DNA of 34,132 nucleotides from contig DATLTC010000022.1 in NCBI GenBank assembly GCA_035533755.1, positions 1 to 34,132 on the forward strand, read 5' to 3'. The DNA is from Gemmatimonadaceae bacterium (GTDB taxonomy: Bacteria; Gemmatimonadota; Gemmatimonadetes; Gemmatimonadales; Gemmatimonadaceae). The notes beneath the pieces were generated by a model. The model made no database searches and was not told where the DNA came from. It was given only the letters and a program-made list of their open reading frames with translations. How positions within the stretch are numbered: position 1 is the stretch's first letter; each line of letters opens with the position of its first letter. Both the position numbers and the translations under genes were made by a program. Shown one piece after another: positions 3,075 through 34,132 of the stretch.

Positions 3075-3265
3075 CGATCCGCAGAAACTCGACGTGCGGG
3101 CCGCCGGGATCGTCGCTGGTTTCTCTATGCCCTTTTTTATGCCCGACGCGGATAGCTGCAGAGGGCGGAACAGCAACGATACCGAAGGCATAGAAGCGGC
3201 ATAACTGCGACTTCAGGCCGACCAGATGACATCGTAACACATTGTAAATCAACGACTTGTAAAAG
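3075..3265. other. Non-coding spacer of low G+C between the permease gene and a tRNA
   Basis: These 191 bases hold no credible gene. By hand count, 3121-3240 is about 53% G+C and 3241-3265 about 28%, against roughly 70% around it. A six-T run is flanked by two TATGCCC copies near 3126-3144. The most A/T-rich part abuts the 3' end of the CAU tRNA gene, which is where tyrosine integrases usually insert. No integrase or direct repeat of the tRNA end is visible, so an old insertion scar is only a possibility. Confidence 0.4.
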
Positions 3266-3339
3266 TAGCAGGGGTGGGACTCGAACCCACGACCCCGGCA
3301 TTATGAGTGCCGTGCTCTAACCACCTGAGCTACCCTGCC
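3266..3339 (-). tRNA. tRNA with CAU anticodon (elongator Met, or Ile after lysidine modification)
   Basis: The minus strand folds into a complete 74-nt cloverleaf. The acceptor is GGCAGGG/CCCTGCT, the D stem GCTC/GAGC, the anticodon stem CGGCA/TGCCG with loop CTCATAA, and the T stem GTGGG/CCCAC with loop TTCGAGT, followed by discriminator A. The CCA end is not encoded (the gene is followed by CTTTT). The first acceptor pair is G1-U72. It is not the initiator, because the anticodon stem lacks three consecutive G-C pairs. Elongator Met and the minor Ile tRNA both carry CAU, and I cannot separate them by eye. It lies downstream of the initiator tRNA gene, beyond a hairpin. Confidence 0.93.
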
Positions 3340-3384
3340 CCGTCTCCTGCGCTGGCCGATAACCTAATCACAGCCTCGCTCAAC

Positions 3385-3415
3385 AGAAACCGGCCGGCCC
3401 TTTCGGACCGGCCGG
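3385..3415 (-). terminator. Rho-independent terminator after the initiator tRNA gene
   Basis: Read on the minus strand, CCGGCCGGTCC (3415-3405), a GAAA loop and GGGCCGGCCGG (3400-3390) make an 11-bp stem with a single G-U pair, capped by a stable GNRA tetraloop. TTTCTGTT follows. The hairpin begins 5 nt after the tRNA-fMet gene. The T tract is imperfect, so termination may be partial. It could also help define the 3' end of the tRNA precursor. Confidence 0.65.
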
Positions 3416-3419
3416 CTAA

Positions 3420-3493
<74 letters not shown>

Positions 3494-26622: not shown

Positions 26623-27881
26623 TCGCGCTCCTGGTGCTCGCCGGCTGCGCCTCGATGGCCGCCATCCCCGGCGGTCCCGAGGATCACACCCCGCCCGTGG
26701 TGGTGGGCATCACGCCCGACACGCAGTCGGTGAACTTCCATCGCGACGCCGTGGACTTCAAGTTCGACGACGTCGTGAACGATCAGTCGGGCCCCACGCG
26801 CGATCTCAATGGGCTGTTCCTGATCTCGCCGCGCGACGGCGCCCCCCGCATCTACTGGCACCGCGATCACATCGACGTGCGGCCCAAGGGCAAGTGGCTG
26901 CCCAACACCGCGTACACGGTCACGCTCCTGCCCGGCCTGTCCGATCTCAGCAACAACGTGATGAAGAACTCGGTCTCGGTGACGTTCAGCACCGGACCCA
27001 CGATTCCGCCCTACGGCGTCCTCGGCCGCGTGTTCGATTGGGTGGCGCAGAAGGTCGCCCCGAACGCCGTCGTCGAAGCCATCCAGCGCCCCGACAGCGT
27101 GGTGTACTTCGGGCTCGCCGATTCCACGGGACAGTTCCACCTCGGCCCGTTCGGCGCCGGCACGTACACCGTGATCGCCTTCATCGATAAGAACAAGAAT
27201 CTCGACCAGGACCCGGGCGAACTCTGGGACAGCGTCCAGGTGAAGATCGACAAGACGCAGCCGTATCTCGAGATGCTCGCCGCCCGGCGCGACACCCTTG
27301 GCCCGCGCATCGCCACGATCGCGGCCGACGACAGCGTCACGCTCCGCGTGACGTTCGACAAGCCGCTCAGCCCCACCGCGCCGATCGACACCAGCCGGTT
27401 CAGCGTGCGCACGGCCGACTCCGTGCACCTGTCGATGCTCTGGGCCAAGTCGCTGCAGCAGTATCAGGCCGAAGTCGCCAAGGAGCACGCCGATTCCGCC
27501 CGCGTGGCCGATTCCCTGGCCGCCATCCGCGACACGACCAAACGCGCCAAGCCCGCCCCGCTGCCCGCGCCGCCGGTGAAGACCGAGCCGGAGCCGCCCA
27601 AGCCGTCGCAGCCGGCGCCGCCTTCGGTGGTGATCATCCGGCTCGCCCTCGGCTCGCACCTCCTACCGCTCAAGCAGTACCGCGTCACGGCCACGGACCT
27701 CGTGAACCTGCTCGGCTACAAGGCCACGTCGTCCCGCGTGTTCGCCACGCCCAAGCCGCCCGAAGCGCCGGTGAATCCCGATTCCACCAAGGGCTCCGCC
27801 AGACCCGACTCCGCGGCGCTCAAGCGCCCGCCGCCCAAGCGCGCCGGAGGCGGACGCGGGGGCGGGAGCGGAGCGCCGTGA
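26610..27881 (+). CDS. Ig-like domain lipoprotein of FCB type
   Basis: This 423-residue protein begins VRRLIALLVLAGC, a minimal 12-residue signal peptide with a lipobox and lipidated Cys13. A GGPED-TPP motif follows, the mark of a lipoprotein family common in Bacteroidetes. An SbsA-type Ig-like domain spans about 27-130 (ending NSVSVTFSTG). A carboxypeptidase-regulatory-like beta domain is at about 135-215 (GPFGAGTYTVIAFIDKNKNLD). A second Ig-like domain starts near 233 and is interrupted at about 290-325 by an Ala/Asp-rich helix and a Pro-rich stretch. The tail is basic and glycine-rich. It is probably anchored in the outer membrane. The GTG start overlaps valS by 13 nt. Function is unknown. 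Confidence 0.85.
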   Translation: MRRLIALLVLAGCASMAAIPGGPEDHTPPVVVGITPDTQSVNFHRDAVDFKFDDVVNDQSGPTRDLNGLFLISPRDGAPRIYWHRDHIDVRPKGKWLPNTAYTVTLLPGLSDLSNNVMKNSVSVTFSTGPTIPPYGVLGRVFDWVAQKVAPNAVVEAIQRPDSVVYFGLADSTGQFHLGPFGAGTYTVIAFIDKNKNLDQDPGELWDSVQVKIDKTQPYLEMLAARRDTLGPRIATIAADDSVTLRVTFDKPLSPTAPIDTSRFSVRTADSVHLSMLWAKSLQQYQAEVAKEHADSARVADSLAAIRDTTKRAKPAPLPAPPVKTEPEPPKPSQPAPPSVVIIRLALGSHLLPLKQYRVTATDLVNLLGYKATSSRVFATPKPPEAPVNPDSTKGSARPDSAALKRPPPKRAGGGRGGGSGAP

Positions 27882-29233
27882 CCGATCCGCGCCGTGCCAT
27901 CCCCAGCGTGAGCGCCCTGCTCGAACTCGCCGAGGTGCGGGAACTCCAGCAGATCGCGCCGCGCGGATTGGTGGTGGACGCGGTGCGGCGGGTGCTCGAC
28001 GACGTACGCCAGGGCGCGCCCACACCGGCGGCCGATGCCGAGTGGGCGGCCCGCATCTCGAGCGCCGTGGCGCGGGCGCAGCGCCCGTCGCTGCGCCCGG
28101 TGCTCAACGCCACGGGCGTGGTGCTGCACACCAACCTCGGTCGCGCCCCACTGGCCGAACCGGCCGTGCGCGCCATCCGGGCCGTGGCGTCGGGGTTCAG
28201 CAATCTCGAATATGACCTGGCCGCCGGCACCCGCGGTTCGCGCTACACGCACTGCGTGGGCCTGCTGCGCGAACTCACCGGCGCCGAGGACGCCGTGGTC
28301 GTGAACAACGGCGCCGCGGCGGTCATGCTCGCCCTCAACACGCTGGCCGACGGCCGCGACGTCATCGTCTCGCGCGGCGAGTTGGTGGAGATCGGCGGCA
28401 GCTTCCGCGTGCCCGAGATCATGGCCAAGAGCGGCGCCCGCCTGGTCGAGGTGGGCACCACCAACCGCACGCACCTGGCCGACTACGAGCGCGCCATCGG
28501 CCCCGACACGGGCGCGATCGTGAAGGTGCACCGCAGCAACTTCGCCATCGACGGATTCGTGGCCGACGTCGGTGTGGCCGACCTGGTGAAGCTCGCCGCG
28601 CCGCGCGGGCTCCCGGTGCTGCACGACCTGGGCAGCGGGCTGATGATCCCGCTCGACGCCATCGGGCTCACCGGCGAGCCCACGGTGGCCGACATCGTCC
28701 GCGCCGGCGCCACGCTGGTGGCGATGAGCGGCGACAAACTCCTGGGCGGCCCGCAGGCCGGCCTGCTCGTGGGATCGGCCGCCGCCATCGAACGCGTGCG
28801 CGCCAACCCGATCACCCGTGCCGTGCGCGTGGACAAGCTCACCATCGCCGCCCTCGAAGCCACGCTGGCGCTGTACCGCGAGCCGCGGCAGGCGCTGGCC
28901 GAGATCCCGACGCTGCGCATGCTGGGCACCGTGGTCGAGGAGTTGCAGGAACGCGCCCACGCCATCCGCAAGCGGCTGCGCCCGATGCCCGATGTCACCG
29001 TCGTGGCCACCGAGGCCACGGTGGGCGGCGGCGCCTTCCCCACGGCGCGCATTCGCTCCGTGGCGCTCTCCATCGGCGGCGACGCCGGGGCGCTCGACGC
29101 GCGGTTGCGCACGGGCGAGCCCGCCGTGGTCGGTCGCATCTCGGGCGGGCGCATGATCCTCGACCTCCGCGCCATCCCGCCGCGCGACGACCACGCGCTC
29201 GTCGGCGCCCTCTCGCGGGCCCTCGACGCATGA
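27878..29233 (+). CDS. selA: L-seryl-tRNA(Sec) selenium transferase
   Basis: This 451-residue PLP enzyme converts seryl-tRNA(Sec) to selenocysteinyl-tRNA. SelA blocks are the N-terminal tRNA-binding helices (1-75), LNATGVVLHTNLGRAPLAE near 78, NNGAAAVMLALN, SRGELVEIGGSFRVPEIM, VGTTNRTHLADY, and the PLP-lysine segment MSGDKLLGGPQAG with Lys287. The full length and the intact N domain argue for true SelA and not the shorter SelA-like paralogues. It implies a selenocysteine system (selB, selC and selD must be elsewhere). The GTG start overlaps the lipoprotein stop as GTGA, and its own stop overlaps gmhB as ATGA. Confidence 0.93.
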   Translation: MTDPRRAIPSVSALLELAEVRELQQIAPRGLVVDAVRRVLDDVRQGAPTPAADAEWAARISSAVARAQRPSLRPVLNATGVVLHTNLGRAPLAEPAVRAIRAVASGFSNLEYDLAAGTRGSRYTHCVGLLRELTGAEDAVVVNNGAAAVMLALNTLADGRDVIVSRGELVEIGGSFRVPEIMAKSGARLVEVGTTNRTHLADYERAIGPDTGAIVKVHRSNFAIDGFVADVGVADLVKLAAPRGLPVLHDLGSGLMIPLDAIGLTGEPTVADIVRAGATLVAMSGDKLLGGPQAGLLVGSAAAIERVRANPITRAVRVDKLTIAALEATLALYREPRQALAEIPTLRMLGTVVEELQERAHAIRKRLRPMPDVTVVATEATVGGGAFPTARIRSVALSIGGDAGALDARLRTGEPAVVGRISGGRMILDLRAIPPRDDHALVGALSRALDA

Positions 29234-29781
29234 GCGGCCTACCGGCGGCGTTCCTGGATCGCGACGGCACGCTCATGCACGACTTCCACTTCACCGACCG
29301 CCCCGAAGACGTGCTGCTGCTCCCCGGCGCGGCCCGGGCCGTGCAGCGGCTCAACGACGCCGGCGTGCCGGTGATCCTGGTGACCAATCAGTCGGGGATC
29401 GCGCGCGGATTCTTCACGATGGCCGATTACGAGCGCGTGAACGCCCGCCTGCGCGAGTTGCTGGCCGAGGAGGGCGCGCACCTGGACGATGCGTATGTCT
29501 GCCCCCACCACCCCGAGTTCTCCGGCGAATGCGCCTGCCGCAAGCCCGGCACGCTGCTGTTCGAAGAGGCGGCGCTGGACCACGGGCTCGACGTCGTGCG
29601 ATCGGTGTTCGTGGGCGACCGCTATCGCGACGTGCAGCCCGGCCTCACGCTGGGCGGGCTGGCGATCCTCGTTCCCAACGACGAGACGCCGGCCGACGAT
29701 CTCGCCAATGCGCGCGACCACGCCGCCGTCGCCAACACGCTCGGCGACGCGGTGACGCGGTTTCTGGGGCGGGCCCCGTGA
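29230..29781 (+). CDS. gmhB: D-glycero-D-manno-heptose 1,7-bisphosphate 7-phosphatase
   Basis: This 183-residue HAD-superfamily phosphatase acts in ADP-heptose synthesis for lipopolysaccharide cores. It has the nucleophile motif FLDRDGTLMHDF at 8-19, motif II VTNQSGIARGFF, the zinc-binding loop CPHHPEFSGECACRKPG (three Cys and two His) and motif III VFVGDRYRDVQPG. These are characteristic of GmhB, including the zinc loop that histidinol phosphatase relatives share. It overlaps selA and purN by 4 nt each. No other heptose gene is in the window. It suggests a Gram-negative cell envelope with heptose. Confidence 0.92.
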   Translation: MSGLPAAFLDRDGTLMHDFHFTDRPEDVLLLPGAARAVQRLNDAGVPVILVTNQSGIARGFFTMADYERVNARLRELLAEEGAHLDDAYVCPHHPEFSGECACRKPGTLLFEEAALDHGLDVVRSVFVGDRYRDVQPGLTLGGLAILVPNDETPADDLANARDHAAVANTLGDAVTRFLGRAP

Positions 29782-30464
29782 CCGCGCGGCTCGCCGTGCT
29801 CGCGTCGGGCGGCGGCTCGAACCTCCAGGCGATCCTCGACCACTGCGACCGGCTGGGCGCGCGGAGCGCCGGCCAGGTGGTGCTGGTGGCCTCCGATCGC
29901 CCGTCGGCCCGCGCCCTCGAGCGCGCGCGGGCCCGCGGCATCGCCACCGGCGTGATCCGGACCAACGCGCACCCCGACGGCGCGCCGCTCGCCGCGCTGT
30001 TGCGCGAGGCGCGGGTGGACTACGTGGTCCTGGCGGGATACCTTCGGCTCGTTCCGGCGGACGTGGTGCGCGCGTACGCGGGACGCATCGTGAACGTGCA
30101 TCCCGCGCTGTTGCCCGCATTCGGCGGACCGGGCATGTACGGTCACCGGGTGCACCAGGCCGTGATCGACGCCGGAGCGGCGGCCAGCGGCGCCACGGTG
30201 CACTTCGTGGACGAGGCGTTCGACCAGGGCGCGATCATCGCGCAGTGGCCGGTGCCCGTTCACCGGGACGACACCGCGGATTCATTGGCGGCGCGGGTAC
30301 TCCGCGTGGAGCATGCGCTCTATCCGCGCGTGGTGCAGGCGCTCGCCGCCGGCCGCGTGCGCCAGGGCCAGCCCCCGCGCACGGGGAACGCCGAACAATT
30401 TCCACTCGCCGATCGCGACGATCGGCATCTCGCCGAGGACATCGAGCATGCGTTGGACCTCTAG
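29778..30464 (+). CDS. purN: Phosphoribosylglycinamide formyltransferase
   Basis: This 228-residue folate-dependent enzyme forms N-formyl-GAR, the third step of purine synthesis. It has LAVLASGGGSNLQAILDHC at 5-23 (phosphate loop), LAGYLRLVPADVV, the catalytic NVHPALLPAFGG (Asn and His) and VHFVDEAFDQGAIIAQ (catalytic Asp). The usual NIHPSLLP is NVHPALLP. The C terminus is about 20 residues longer than in E. coli. The GTG start at 29778 overlaps the gmhB stop as GTGA and puts the conserved region at residue 4. The stop lies 17 nt inside the following peptidase gene. Confidence 0.95.
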   Translation: MTARLAVLASGGGSNLQAILDHCDRLGARSAGQVVLVASDRPSARALERARARGIATGVIRTNAHPDGAPLAALLREARVDYVVLAGYLRLVPADVVRAYAGRIVNVHPALLPAFGGPGMYGHRVHQAVIDAGAAASGATVHFVDEAFDQGAIIAQWPVPVHRDDTADSLAARVLRVEHALYPRVVQALAAGRVRQGQPPRTGNAEQFPLADRDDRHLAEDIEHALDL

Positions 30465-32559
30465 ACTCGCACGCACCGGCCTGTGGTTCGCATCCCTCGC
30501 GCTGGCTCCCGCCGCCGGCGCGCAATCCCCAGCGCCCGGTTCGCCGCTCATCCACGTGGTGCAGCGCTGGATCGGATTGCCCACCGCTCCGGGACGCGAG
30601 CGGTTCGCCACCGATCGCATCCAGGCCGCCGACCGCGGCTGGACGCGCGATGCCCTGGGCGACCTCGTCAAGACGCGCGGGTCGGGCGCGCCGGTGCGCG
30701 TGGTCGCGTGCGGACTCGACGCGCCCGCCTACATGATCAGCCAGATCACCGACGACGGCTACCTGCGCGTGCAGATGGACGGCAACGGCGCCCGCCGCCC
30801 CCTGTGGGACGACTTTCACCTGGGCCAGCGCATCCTCGTCGAGACGGGCAATCCCGCCACGCCCGACTCGGTGAAGTTCGTGCCCGGCGTATTCCTGGTC
30901 CGCAGCACGCATCTGTGGCGGGGACAGCCGGCCACCAACGGCGTCCCCACGGTGGACGACCTGTGGATCGACGTCGGCGCGCGCAACGCCGCCGAGGCGT
31001 CGCGCATGGGCATCCGGCTGCTCGACCCCGTGTTCCGCGATCTCCCGCCGTGGCAGGTGGCCAACTACGTCACCGGTCCCGACGCCGCGTCGCGCGCCGG
31101 GTGCGCCGCCGTCGAGGCCGCGTCGCAGGGCACGCCGGCCACGGGCACCGACATCTTCGTCATCGCGGTGCAGAGCAGCTTCAACTGGTCGGGGCTCACC
31201 GGCGTGCTGTCGCGCACGCACAACGCCGACTCGGTGATCGTCGTGACGGCGTCGCGCGTGCGGGCCGCCGACACCACCGCCGCCGTGGGCGTGGAACCGA
31301 TGCGGCTGGCCTCGCTGGCCGGCATGCACGTGGGCGCCGCGTACGCGCTGGCCGTCCGGTCGCGGTATCCCAACACGCTGGTCGAGAGCGTGAGCAGCTC
31401 CGACCTGCGCGCGCTGTTCGAGCGGGTGGCATCGGCCGCGGACGTGCGGACCACCGCCAAGCCGGCGATGCCCGTGGCCACGCTTCCGATCGCGGCCGAG
31501 CGCCATGACAGCCTGTCGCGCGACGCCGACCTGCTCGCCCGCCTGACCGACCGCTACGCGGTCTCGGGGCACGAGGGCCCGGTGCGCGATCTGATCCGCG
31601 ACGCGCTGCCGGCGTGGGCTAAGTCGCGCGCCGTGGTCGATTCGGCCGGGAACATGTACGTGGCCGTCGGCCCCGATCGCGACACGGTGGTCATCGTCGC
31701 GCATATGGATGAGGTGGGCTTCGACGTGGCCAAGGTGAACCCCGACGGACTGGTGGAACTGCGCATGCGCGGCGGATTCTACACGTCGCTGTGGGCCGGC
31801 CAGCCGGCGCTGCTGCACCGCGACACCGACGTGCAGGGCTCCACCGGTGTGCGCGACTGCGCGGCCACCAGCGCCACGGCGCTCAAGGGCGTGTTCGTGC
31901 CGCCCGACGACGTGCTCGCCCGCAACTCGCGCACCGTGTATGCCTGGTTCGGCCCCGATCCGGCCGCGCTCGGCGTGGCGCCGGGAATGACCGTCACCGC
32001 GTACAAGTGCGCCACGCGACTCGGCGCGCTGCGATTCACGGCCCGCGCCATCGACGATCGCGCGGGAGACACCTCGCTGCTGCTCGCCATGGACATGATC
32101 GATCCGGCCAAGCTCGACCACAAGGTGATCTTCGCCTTCTCCACGCGCGAGGAGATCGGGCTCAACGGCGCCGAAGCGTTGGCCGCCGAGTTCCGCACGT
32201 CGGTGCGGCGCGTGCTGGCCATCGATACGTTCGTGTCGTCCGACTCGCCGCTCGAGGACAAGCGATTCGCCGACACTCCGATCGGCATGGGCCCCGTGGC
32301 CCGGATGATGGACAACTCGAGCGTGACCCCGCCCGACGAGATGGCGCGGCTGTTTCGCATCGCCGCCGCGCACGGCATCCCGCTGCAGAACGGCACCACC
32401 AACGGCGGCAACGACGGCTCCGCGTTCACGCGCTACGGCGTGGTGGACGTGCCCATCGGGTGGCCGCTGCGCGATAGTCATTCGCCCGCCGAGGTGATCG
32501 ACCTGCGGGACGTGCGCTCGCTGGCGCGGCTGGTGGCGGCTTTGGCGGTAGGACGGTAG
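30448..32559 (+). CDS. Secreted double M42-family peptidase with degenerate N-terminal half
   Basis: This 703-residue protein has a Sec signal peptide (cleavage after about residue 25, APAAGA) and two M42 aminopeptidase-like halves. The C-terminal half (about 385-700) keeps the dinuclear metal site: His419 and Asp421 (AHMDEVGF), Asp536-Asp537 (IDDRAGD), Glu568-Glu569 (TREEIGLNGAE), Asp593 and His678 (DSHSPAE). The N-terminal half (about 30-370) keeps M42 landmarks (DDLWIDVGARNAAEASRMGI) but has lost ligands: ACGLDAP for AHMDE (Cys88), DAASR for DDR (Asp212), and VQSSFNW for VQEEVGL (Ser243-Ser244). It overlaps purN by 17 nt. Likely a periplasmic aminopeptidase. Confidence 0.85.
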   Translation: MRWTSRLARTGLWFASLALAPAAGAQSPAPGSPLIHVVQRWIGLPTAPGRERFATDRIQAADRGWTRDALGDLVKTRGSGAPVRVVACGLDAPAYMISQITDDGYLRVQMDGNGARRPLWDDFHLGQRILVETGNPATPDSVKFVPGVFLVRSTHLWRGQPATNGVPTVDDLWIDVGARNAAEASRMGIRLLDPVFRDLPPWQVANYVTGPDAASRAGCAAVEAASQGTPATGTDIFVIAVQSSFNWSGLTGVLSRTHNADSVIVVTASRVRAADTTAAVGVEPMRLASLAGMHVGAAYALAVRSRYPNTLVESVSSSDLRALFERVASAADVRTTAKPAMPVATLPIAAERHDSLSRDADLLARLTDRYAVSGHEGPVRDLIRDALPAWAKSRAVVDSAGNMYVAVGPDRDTVVIVAHMDEVGFDVAKVNPDGLVELRMRGGFYTSLWAGQPALLHRDTDVQGSTGVRDCAATSATALKGVFVPPDDVLARNSRTVYAWFGPDPAALGVAPGMTVTAYKCATRLGALRFTARAIDDRAGDTSLLLAMDMIDPAKLDHKVIFAFSTREEIGLNGAEALAAEFRTSVRRVLAIDTFVSSDSPLEDKRFADTPIGMGPVARMMDNSSVTPPDEMARLFRIAAAHGIPLQNGTTNGGNDGSAFTRYGVVDVPIGWPLRDSHSPAEVIDLRDVRSLARLVAALAVGR

Positions 32560-32633
32560 GAGCGTAGGGGGGTAGGACGGATGACTGCAGAACGCCGTTT
32601 ACCAACTACTCCCCTACCGTCCTACCGCCCTAC
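32544..32633. repeat. GTAGGACGG repeat with two alternative inverted-repeat pairings
   Basis: Arm A (32544-32560, GGCGGTAGGACGGTAGG) is perfectly complementary to 32613-32629. Arm B (32564-32580, GTAGGGGGGTAGGACGG) is complementary to 32617-32633 with one mismatch. The right arm cannot pair with both. Arm A contains the last three codons and TAG stop of the peptidase gene. The unit GTAGGACGG occurs twice on the left. It fills most of the 110-bp gap before purH and could be a genome-wide repetitive element, a bidirectional terminator or an attenuator. No T tract follows. Confidence 0.75.
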
Positions 32634-32669
32634 TCTCACAATTACGACCCAACTTCAATTCCACACCCC

Positions 32670-34132
32670 ATGCGCGCTCTGCTCTCCGTATCGAATAAAT
32701 CCGGCCTCGTGGAATTCGCCACGGGGCTCGTCGCCCTCGGCTGGGAGCTGGTCTCCACCGGCGGCACCGCACGCACGCTGCGCGAGGCCGGCCTCGCCGT
32801 GCGCGACGTCAGCGAGGTCACCGGCTTCCCGGAGATGCTCGACGGCCGCGTGAAGACGCTGCACCCGGTGGTGCACGGCGGATTGCTGGCGCGGCGCGAC
32901 CTGCCCGAGCACATGGCGGCGCTGGCCGAACATCACATCGCGCCGATCGATCTCGTGGTGGTGAACCTGTATCCGTTCCGGGAGACGGCCGCCCGGCGCG
33001 GCGTCGCGCCGGAAGAGGTGATCGAGAACATCGACATCGGCGGCCCCAGCATGCTGCGCTCGGCGGCCAAGAACTTCGCGTCGGTGTACGTGGTGGTGGA
33101 CCCGGCCGACTACGGACGCGTGCTGGCGGCGATCCAATCCGGCGACGACGACCTCGATCTGCGGCGGTTGCTGGCCGGCAAGGTGTACGCGCACACGGCG
33201 TCGTACGACGCGGCGATCGCCGCCTGGTTCGCGCACGAGCGCGAGGAACTGTTCCCGGCCACGGTGACGATGAGCTTCGAACTGGCGCAGTCGCTGCGCT
33301 ACGGCGAGAACCCCGGCCAGGCGGCGGCGTTCTACGTGGAACGGCCGGGCGCCGGCCTCTCGGCGCTGGTGCAGAAGGGCGGCAAGGAGCTCTCGTTCAA
33401 CAACCTCATCGACCTCGAGGGCGCGCTCCTGGCCATCGAACCGTTCGCCGGCACCACGGCGTGCGCGATCATCAAGCACACCACGCCGTGCGGGCTGGCC
33501 CTTGGCGCCACCGCGCGCCAGGCGTACGAGAAGGCGCTGGCCTGCGATCCGGTGTCGGCATTCGGATCGGTGATCGCGTTCAACGTGCCGGTGGACGAAG
33601 ACACGGCGAACGTCGTGGCCAGTCTGTTCGTGGAGTGCATCGTGGCGCCGTCGTTCTCCGACGCCGCGGTGGAGGTGTTGGGGCGCAAGAAGAACCTCCG
33701 CGTGCTCGAGGGCACGGCGATGTGGCCGCCGCACAGCTTCGACTACAAGCGCGTGCGCGGCGGCGTGCTGGTGCAGGAGCGCGCCCCGGGCGTGATCGAC
33801 GACGCGGGGTGGACGGTGCCCACCAAGCGGCAGCCCACCGCCGACGAGCTCAAGGACCTGCTGTTCGCGTGGCGGGCCGTGGCGAGCGTGAAGAGCAACG
33901 CGATCGTGCTCACCCGCGACGGCGCGACGATCGGCATCGGCGCCGGCCAGATGTCGCGGGTGGACGCGTCGTTCATCGCGGCGCACAAGGCGCGCACCAC
34001 GGGCCACGACACCAAGGGCTCGGTGATGGGGTCGGATGCGTTCTTCCCCTTCCGCGACGGCGTGGACCAGGCCGCCGAGGCGGGCGTGGCGGCCATCATC
34101 CAGCCCGGCGGCAGCGTGCGCGACGCCGAGGT
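32670..34132 (+). CDS. purH: Bifunctional AICAR formyltransferase/IMP cyclohydrolase, 3' end cut by the window
   Basis: The 487 visible codons cover almost the whole enzyme, which makes IMP in the last two purine steps; roughly 20-30 residues are missing. The IMP cyclohydrolase domain (about 1-195) has LLSVSNKSGLVEFA, STGGTARTLREAG, GRVKTLHPVVHGGLLARRD and NIDIGGPSMLRSAAKNF. The formyltransferase domain has LRYGENPGQAAAFY, KELSFNNLIDLEGAL, the catalytic IKHTTPCGLA and VKSNAIVLTRDG, ending near GSDAFFPFRDGVDQA. The ATG at 32670 has no Shine-Dalgarno upstream (TTCCACACCCC), so translation may rely on another signal or a short leader. It follows the GTAGGACGG repeat. Confidence 0.96.
   Translation, partial: MRALLSVSNKSGLVEFATGLVALGWELVSTGGTARTLREAGLAVRDVSEVTGFPEMLDGRVKTLHPVVHGGLLARRDLPEHMAALAEHHIAPIDLVVVNLYPFRETAARRGVAPEEVIENIDIGGPSMLRSAAKNFASVYVVVDPADYGRVLAAIQSGDDDLDLRRLLAGKVYAHTASYDAAIAAWFAHEREELFPATVTMSFELAQSLRYGENPGQAAAFYVERPGAGLSALVQKGGKELSFNNLIDLEGALLAIEPFAGTTACAIIKHTTPCGLALGATARQAYEKALACDPVSAFGSVIAFNVPVDEDTANVVASLFVECIVAPSFSDAAVEVLGRKKNLRVLEGTAMWPPHSFDYKRVRGGVLVQERAPGVIDDAGWTVPTKRQPTADELKDLLFAWRAVASVKSNAIVLTRDGATIGIGAGQMSRVDASFIAAHKARTTGHDTKGSVMGSDAFFPFRDGVDQAAEAGVAAIIQPGGSVRDAE

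Follow-up and report, generated by a model that had tools for sequence, protein, structure and literature searches.

A probably exported M42 peptidase homologue of the Gemmatimonadaceae with its metal site and loop histidine divided between two halves

The window analysed here is a stretch of 34,132 nucleotides from a Gemmatimonadaceae bacterium (GenBank assembly GCA_035533755.1, contig DATLTC010000022.1, positions 1 to 34,132 of the forward strand). It carries a run of overlapping genes in the order selA, a gmhB-like gene, purN and a gene for a two-domain M42 peptidase homologue. The last of these (30448–32559, + strand) overlaps purN (29778–30464, +; TIGR00639 above cut-off) by 17 bases and is followed by purH (32670–34130, +; TIGR00355 above cut-off), which runs off the window; the two TIGRFAM assignments bear out the position between purN and purH that an earlier note on this DNA had given. 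The gap between the M42 gene and purH spans 110 bases and contains a strong hairpin. A palindromic element is found here (32544–32637), with a predicted fold of −55 kcal/mol and a z of −5.6. Its 70 two-strand matches in the same genome place it at some tens of sites, and it looks like a dispersed REP/MITE-type repeat. Elsewhere in the window, selA (27878–29233) scores above its curated cut-off, and as selB is found at another place in the genome, a selenocysteine system is likely. Two tandem tRNA-Met genes lie on the minus strand (3265–3493).

The M42 gene encodes a protein of 703 amino acids. By direct reading, it begins with a signal-peptide-like N-terminus (residues 1–25; 30448–30522, +) that ends in AGA before Gln26. 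There follow an N half (residues 26–345; 30523–31482, +), an inter-domain linker of residues about 346–356 (31483–31515, +), near which the structural model has a lower-confidence stretch around residues 341–350, and a C half (residues 357–703; 31516–32556, +). Pfam Peptidase_M42, for which the curated cut-off is 23.2 bits, matches the whole protein at 9.6e-60, the N half alone at 1e-13 (51.5 bits) and the C half alone at 2.1e-45 (155.5 bits), and it is matched by 69 of 69 N-half members. The two-headed M42 layout described in the earlier note is thus confirmed in its reading frame, its coordinates and both of its halves. An AF2 model of the whole protein, with 53 sequences as input, has a pLDDT of 89.2 and a pTM of 0.90. 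Structure comparison of the whole protein matched the C half only, and the N half was therefore folded and searched apart (69 sequences as input; pLDDT 90.8, pTM 0.90). Against PhTET1, the C-half model gives a Z of 40.5 over 319 residues at 2.1 Å and the N-half model a Z of 28.9 over 278 residues at 2.6 Å, the latter matching M42 structures along its entire length. In these confident predictions both halves are complete M42 folds, and the possibility raised earlier, that residues 26–370 do not adopt the M42 fold, falls away given the pLDDT and Z of the N half.

Homologues were drawn from whole genomes within the same phylum and their halves aligned jointly, giving a set of 74 N halves and 73 C halves from many genera and one distant Burkholderiales MAG. 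The complete dinuclear site (HxD, DD/NR, EE, D, H) is found in 73/73 C halves. In the window protein it consists of the metal/catalytic motif H419-M-D421 (31702–31710, +), D536-D537-R538 with the bridging Asp (32053–32061, +), the general base and metal ligand E568-E569 (32149–32154, +) and the metal ligands D593 (32224–32226, +) and H678 (32479–32481, +); H419, D421, D537, R538, E568, E569, D593 and H678 are each kept in all 73. The site is absent from 74/74 N halves, in which the metal ligands and the catalytic Glu are gone. Where the first His would stand, 70/74 have Ala, Gly or Pro and none has His; the EE pair is not retained, being replaced in the window protein by Ser243-Ser244 (31174–31179, +); and the position of the last His holds a His in one row of the alignment only. 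In the joint alignment this last position falls on Asn309 of the window protein, and the HMM alignment has a gap there. What the N half does retain is D91, the Asp of HxD, and R216, the Arg of DDR. A first joint alignment had an equivalent of D593 kept in many N halves, but this was rejected as unreliable, as other alignments give a gap or another residue.

That the first half has lost its metal site and the second keeps all ligands, as the earlier note had it, therefore holds throughout the set. Its list of individual residues was right about the replacement of Glu-Glu by Ser243-Ser244 and wrong at two positions: D91 pairs with the Asp of HxD, D421, which puts the lost His at Gly89 and Cys88 one residue before it, and the bridging Asp corresponds to Ser215 rather than Asp212. 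The same note had suggested a search for homologues with an intact first half, of which this copy might be a mutant. None of the 74 N halves is intact, and the missing ligands are conserved as missing, so a local mutation of an intact two-site enzyme is ruled out among the homologues examined. We class the C half as an M42 enzyme minus one common family feature, and the N half as an M42 homologue that is no enzyme.

The feature in question is a conserved loop histidine, which is common among M42 peptidases without strictly defining them. In the N half, the M42 loop of the insertion domain has its canonical length (residues 147–177; 30886–30978, +; 31 amino acids vs 30 in single M42s) and carries His155 (30910–30912, +), the equivalent of the M42 loop His (PPH motif, H123 of TET2). 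The C half has a shortened loop lacking the conserved His (residues 481–502, GVFVPPDDVLARNSRTVYAWFG; 31888–31953, +), and the median length among C halves is 22 amino acids against the 30 of single M42s. The aligned loop His is found in 74/74 N halves and 19/19 single M42s, and in 0/73 C halves. An independent alignment, to an HMM made solely from single M42s, gave the identical pattern, which rules out misalignment. In 17/73 C halves a His does occur elsewhere in the loop region, at positions that do not align, and this counts against a role of His155 in trans. The Burkholderiales copy (locus L004), at 35% identity, has the same reciprocity of metal site and loop His as the others. It is this reciprocal loss, of the metal site from N halves and of the loop His from C halves, that is new here.

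The mobile loop that bears the conserved His belongs to the M42 insertion domain and reads P121-P122-H123 in TET2. According to Gauto et al. (PMC8993905), H123 of TET2 may sit close to the active site of the neighbouring subunit, and its loss weakens substrate binding; against a role in trans, the distance between loop His and active site ranges from about 4 to over 20 Å across the structures surveyed, and a possible chemical role of the His was termed minor by the authors (PMC8993905). As each half of the present protein has lost what its partner kept, the simplest cause would be that the halves always act together, with the N loop serving the C site. Judged by sequence, the more than 70 related pairs suggest a single working active site common to both halves.

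Where the metal site was lost, the N half carries a conserved pair of cysteines. Cys88 (30709–30711, +) directly precedes the lost metal-binding His (Gly89), and Cys219 (31102–31104, +) lies three residues past R216, the Arg of what was once DDR. Both are present in 73/74 N halves, the exception being L004, in which the N half has Ala at both positions and no Cys at all. Exactly two cysteines are found in 58/74 N halves, and the position of Cys88 is always Ala in C halves. Given an exported protein, a Cys88–Cys219 disulfide across the empty metal site is likely.

Signal-peptide-like N-termini were recognised by eye in the fused proteins and in each ORF of the split pairs described below, and Ala25 and Gln26 are kept in 82% and 93% of relatives, respectively. 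The protein is probably exported and would then be expected in the periplasm. The earlier note had pointed to the signal peptide, but export would not be unique to this protein. Four single-domain M42s from other genomes, with all ligand positions filled, also have signal-peptide-like starts (L120, L121, L124, L135), so export alone is unremarkable. These four have the loop His, and Glu rather than Asp at the position of D593. At 30520–30526, Gln comes right after a signal-peptide-like AxA, as it does in 93% of N halves; this recalls the Q-rule (Gln after the signal peptide), which has been termed exclusive to Bacteroidetes (PMC10653852).

The two halves are not always fused. In two other families (f2 and f3) of the same taxonomic order they are mostly separate ORFs, and in 20/20 split loci examined in detail these overlap by exactly four bases, ATGA or GTGA, so that the second ORF starts inside the stop codon of the first. 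The second ORF continues into an intact catalytic half in 19/20, the C frame being broken in one, and further split pairs were seen beyond these 20. The only C-type genes seen to lack an upstream N gene lay at the end of a contig or were fragmentary. The fused genes nearest the window and many split loci have the order purN, N half, C half, purH in common, and hence a pair of pseudo-subunit and enzyme was fused or split. Other fused copies sit away from purN and purH; the purine neighbourhood remarked on in the earlier note is thus conserved in only part of the group, and a purine role is not implied. A tree made by a quick method with a midpoint root has three groups, made up of the N halves (support 98), the C halves (99) and the single M42s (96), and fused and split sequences separate alike within the N and C groups. 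The Burkholderiales copy is fused and branches outside both the fused and the split groups. This lone fused homologue (L004, 5989–8037) is possibly a case of transfer or of a binning error, and a search of 300 Burkholderiales genomes with its protein gave no other full-length homologue. Among plasmids, no full-length match was found. In one genome (G208) the fused pair occurs twice, on separate contigs (L045 and L067).

We put at roughly 60% the probability that the window protein is an exported aminopeptidase whose halves form an obligate pseudo-heterodimer within a single chain, with a composite active site and a disulfide-braced dead site. The C half (357–703) would provide a complete dinuclear M42 aminopeptidase core minus the loop His, and the N half (26–345) would contribute the M42 fold with its loop and His155 retained and its metal site gone. 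The halves would pair like two subunits of the usual M42 dimer, which would allow the N-half loop to put His155 at the C-half active site and help hold the substrate there, as proposed for TET2. The dead site would be braced by the Cys88–Cys219 disulfide rather than by metal, and in sister lineages the same pair would come from two genes that overlap, each with a signal peptide of its own. Gene linkage, the occurrence of split and fused forms, the reciprocal loss and the confident joint model all argue for the pairing, while the trans role of His155 is proposed from sequence and from the published work on TET2. That reciprocal degeneration of paralogous subunits has made the active site obligately composite, with a disulfide-closed dead site and with both two-gene and fused forms, is a proposition we consider evenly balanced. 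The suggestion in the earlier note that the first half is a built-in dimer partner is well supported by the split genes with their four-base overlap and by the reciprocal loss of metal site and loop His. An altered oligomer form, which it also suggested, is plausible, because pairing of M42 paralogues has precedent and metal occupancy governs M42 assembly.

Other roles for the N half have to be weighed against this. It might be a structural partner only, which pairs with the C half by way of the insertion domain and prevents the 12-mer or alters its shape, with His155 kept for fold or assembly; the outcome would be an open dimer or an altered shell for larger substrates. The M1 metal site has been linked to the oligomer interface of M42 enzymes, and dodecamer formation is driven by metals (PMC8993905; PMC7948507), so that a metal-free half should not assemble normally, and the insertion-domain motif D175-x-G177 is invariant among N halves. 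However, a purely structural role leaves unexplained why the loop His is lost in 73/73 C halves and retained in 74/74 N halves, and we think it unlikely. We are more doubtful still of a module for peptide binding or sensing, which would use the old pocket to deliver or select substrates with no catalysis. Near that pocket, D91, R216 and E313 are almost invariant among N halves, but they are also general M42 scaffold residues, and the former active-site positions vary (Ala, Gly, Pro; Ser, Arg, His, Lys), unlike a conserved pocket.

Selection bears on whether the N half has a function at all. By the Nei–Gojobori method, dN/dS for seven closer pairs is 0.04–0.24 in N halves and 0.04–0.20 in C halves, and for two pairs of the window's genus 0.46–0.49 and 0.24–0.32, respectively; the N-half value is below 0.5 in all nine pairs. 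The N half therefore evolves faster than the C half yet is constrained, under purifying selection. Its faster divergence would suit a decaying duplicate without function, but the N half is present in all intact loci across many genera, and its invariant residues and conserved Cys pair do not fit such decay. Together with dN/dS, this conservation rules out a decaying domain, and we give a functionless duplicate hardly any credence.

If the composite-site reading is correct, the pair would offer an example of a pseudoenzyme that may have been retained for its contribution to an active site, with natural fused and split versions that can be compared. What the mobile M42 loop does, and whether its His acts on a neighbouring subunit, is unsettled, and here the metals and the loop His are naturally separated. 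Trans action could be probed directly by mutating His155 or a C-half ligand, an approach that is less clean in a symmetric homododecamer. With most subscription journals outside the coverage of our search, we found no literature on an M42 pseudo-subunit or on M42 in Gemmatimonas. A review of metallopeptidase pseudoenzymes describes inactive homologues paired with active relatives, as here, and M42, M20 and M28 are unmentioned in its main text (PMC11266112).

Among known M42 systems, PhTET1 and PhTET2 (PDB 2wyr, 1y0r) have the fold that is common to both halves, with all their ligands found in the C half and their loop and His in the N half. The TETs are single-domain 12-mers with a metal site and loop His in each subunit, whereas these are divided here between two halves, and the present fused or co-encoded protein differs also in being predicted to be exported. 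The YtoP–YsdC pair of Bacillus subtilis (PDB 9a5r), supported by in-cell cross-links, is likewise a pairing of M42 paralogues (PMC10090944); YtoP and YsdC are two separate proteins in contrast to the fusion here. The PhTET2–PhTET3 hetero-dodecamer is a mixed M42 assembly such as we propose, but it is built in vitro from homodimers of two enzymes, where the present protein would join a pseudo-subunit to an enzyme (PMC4220976).
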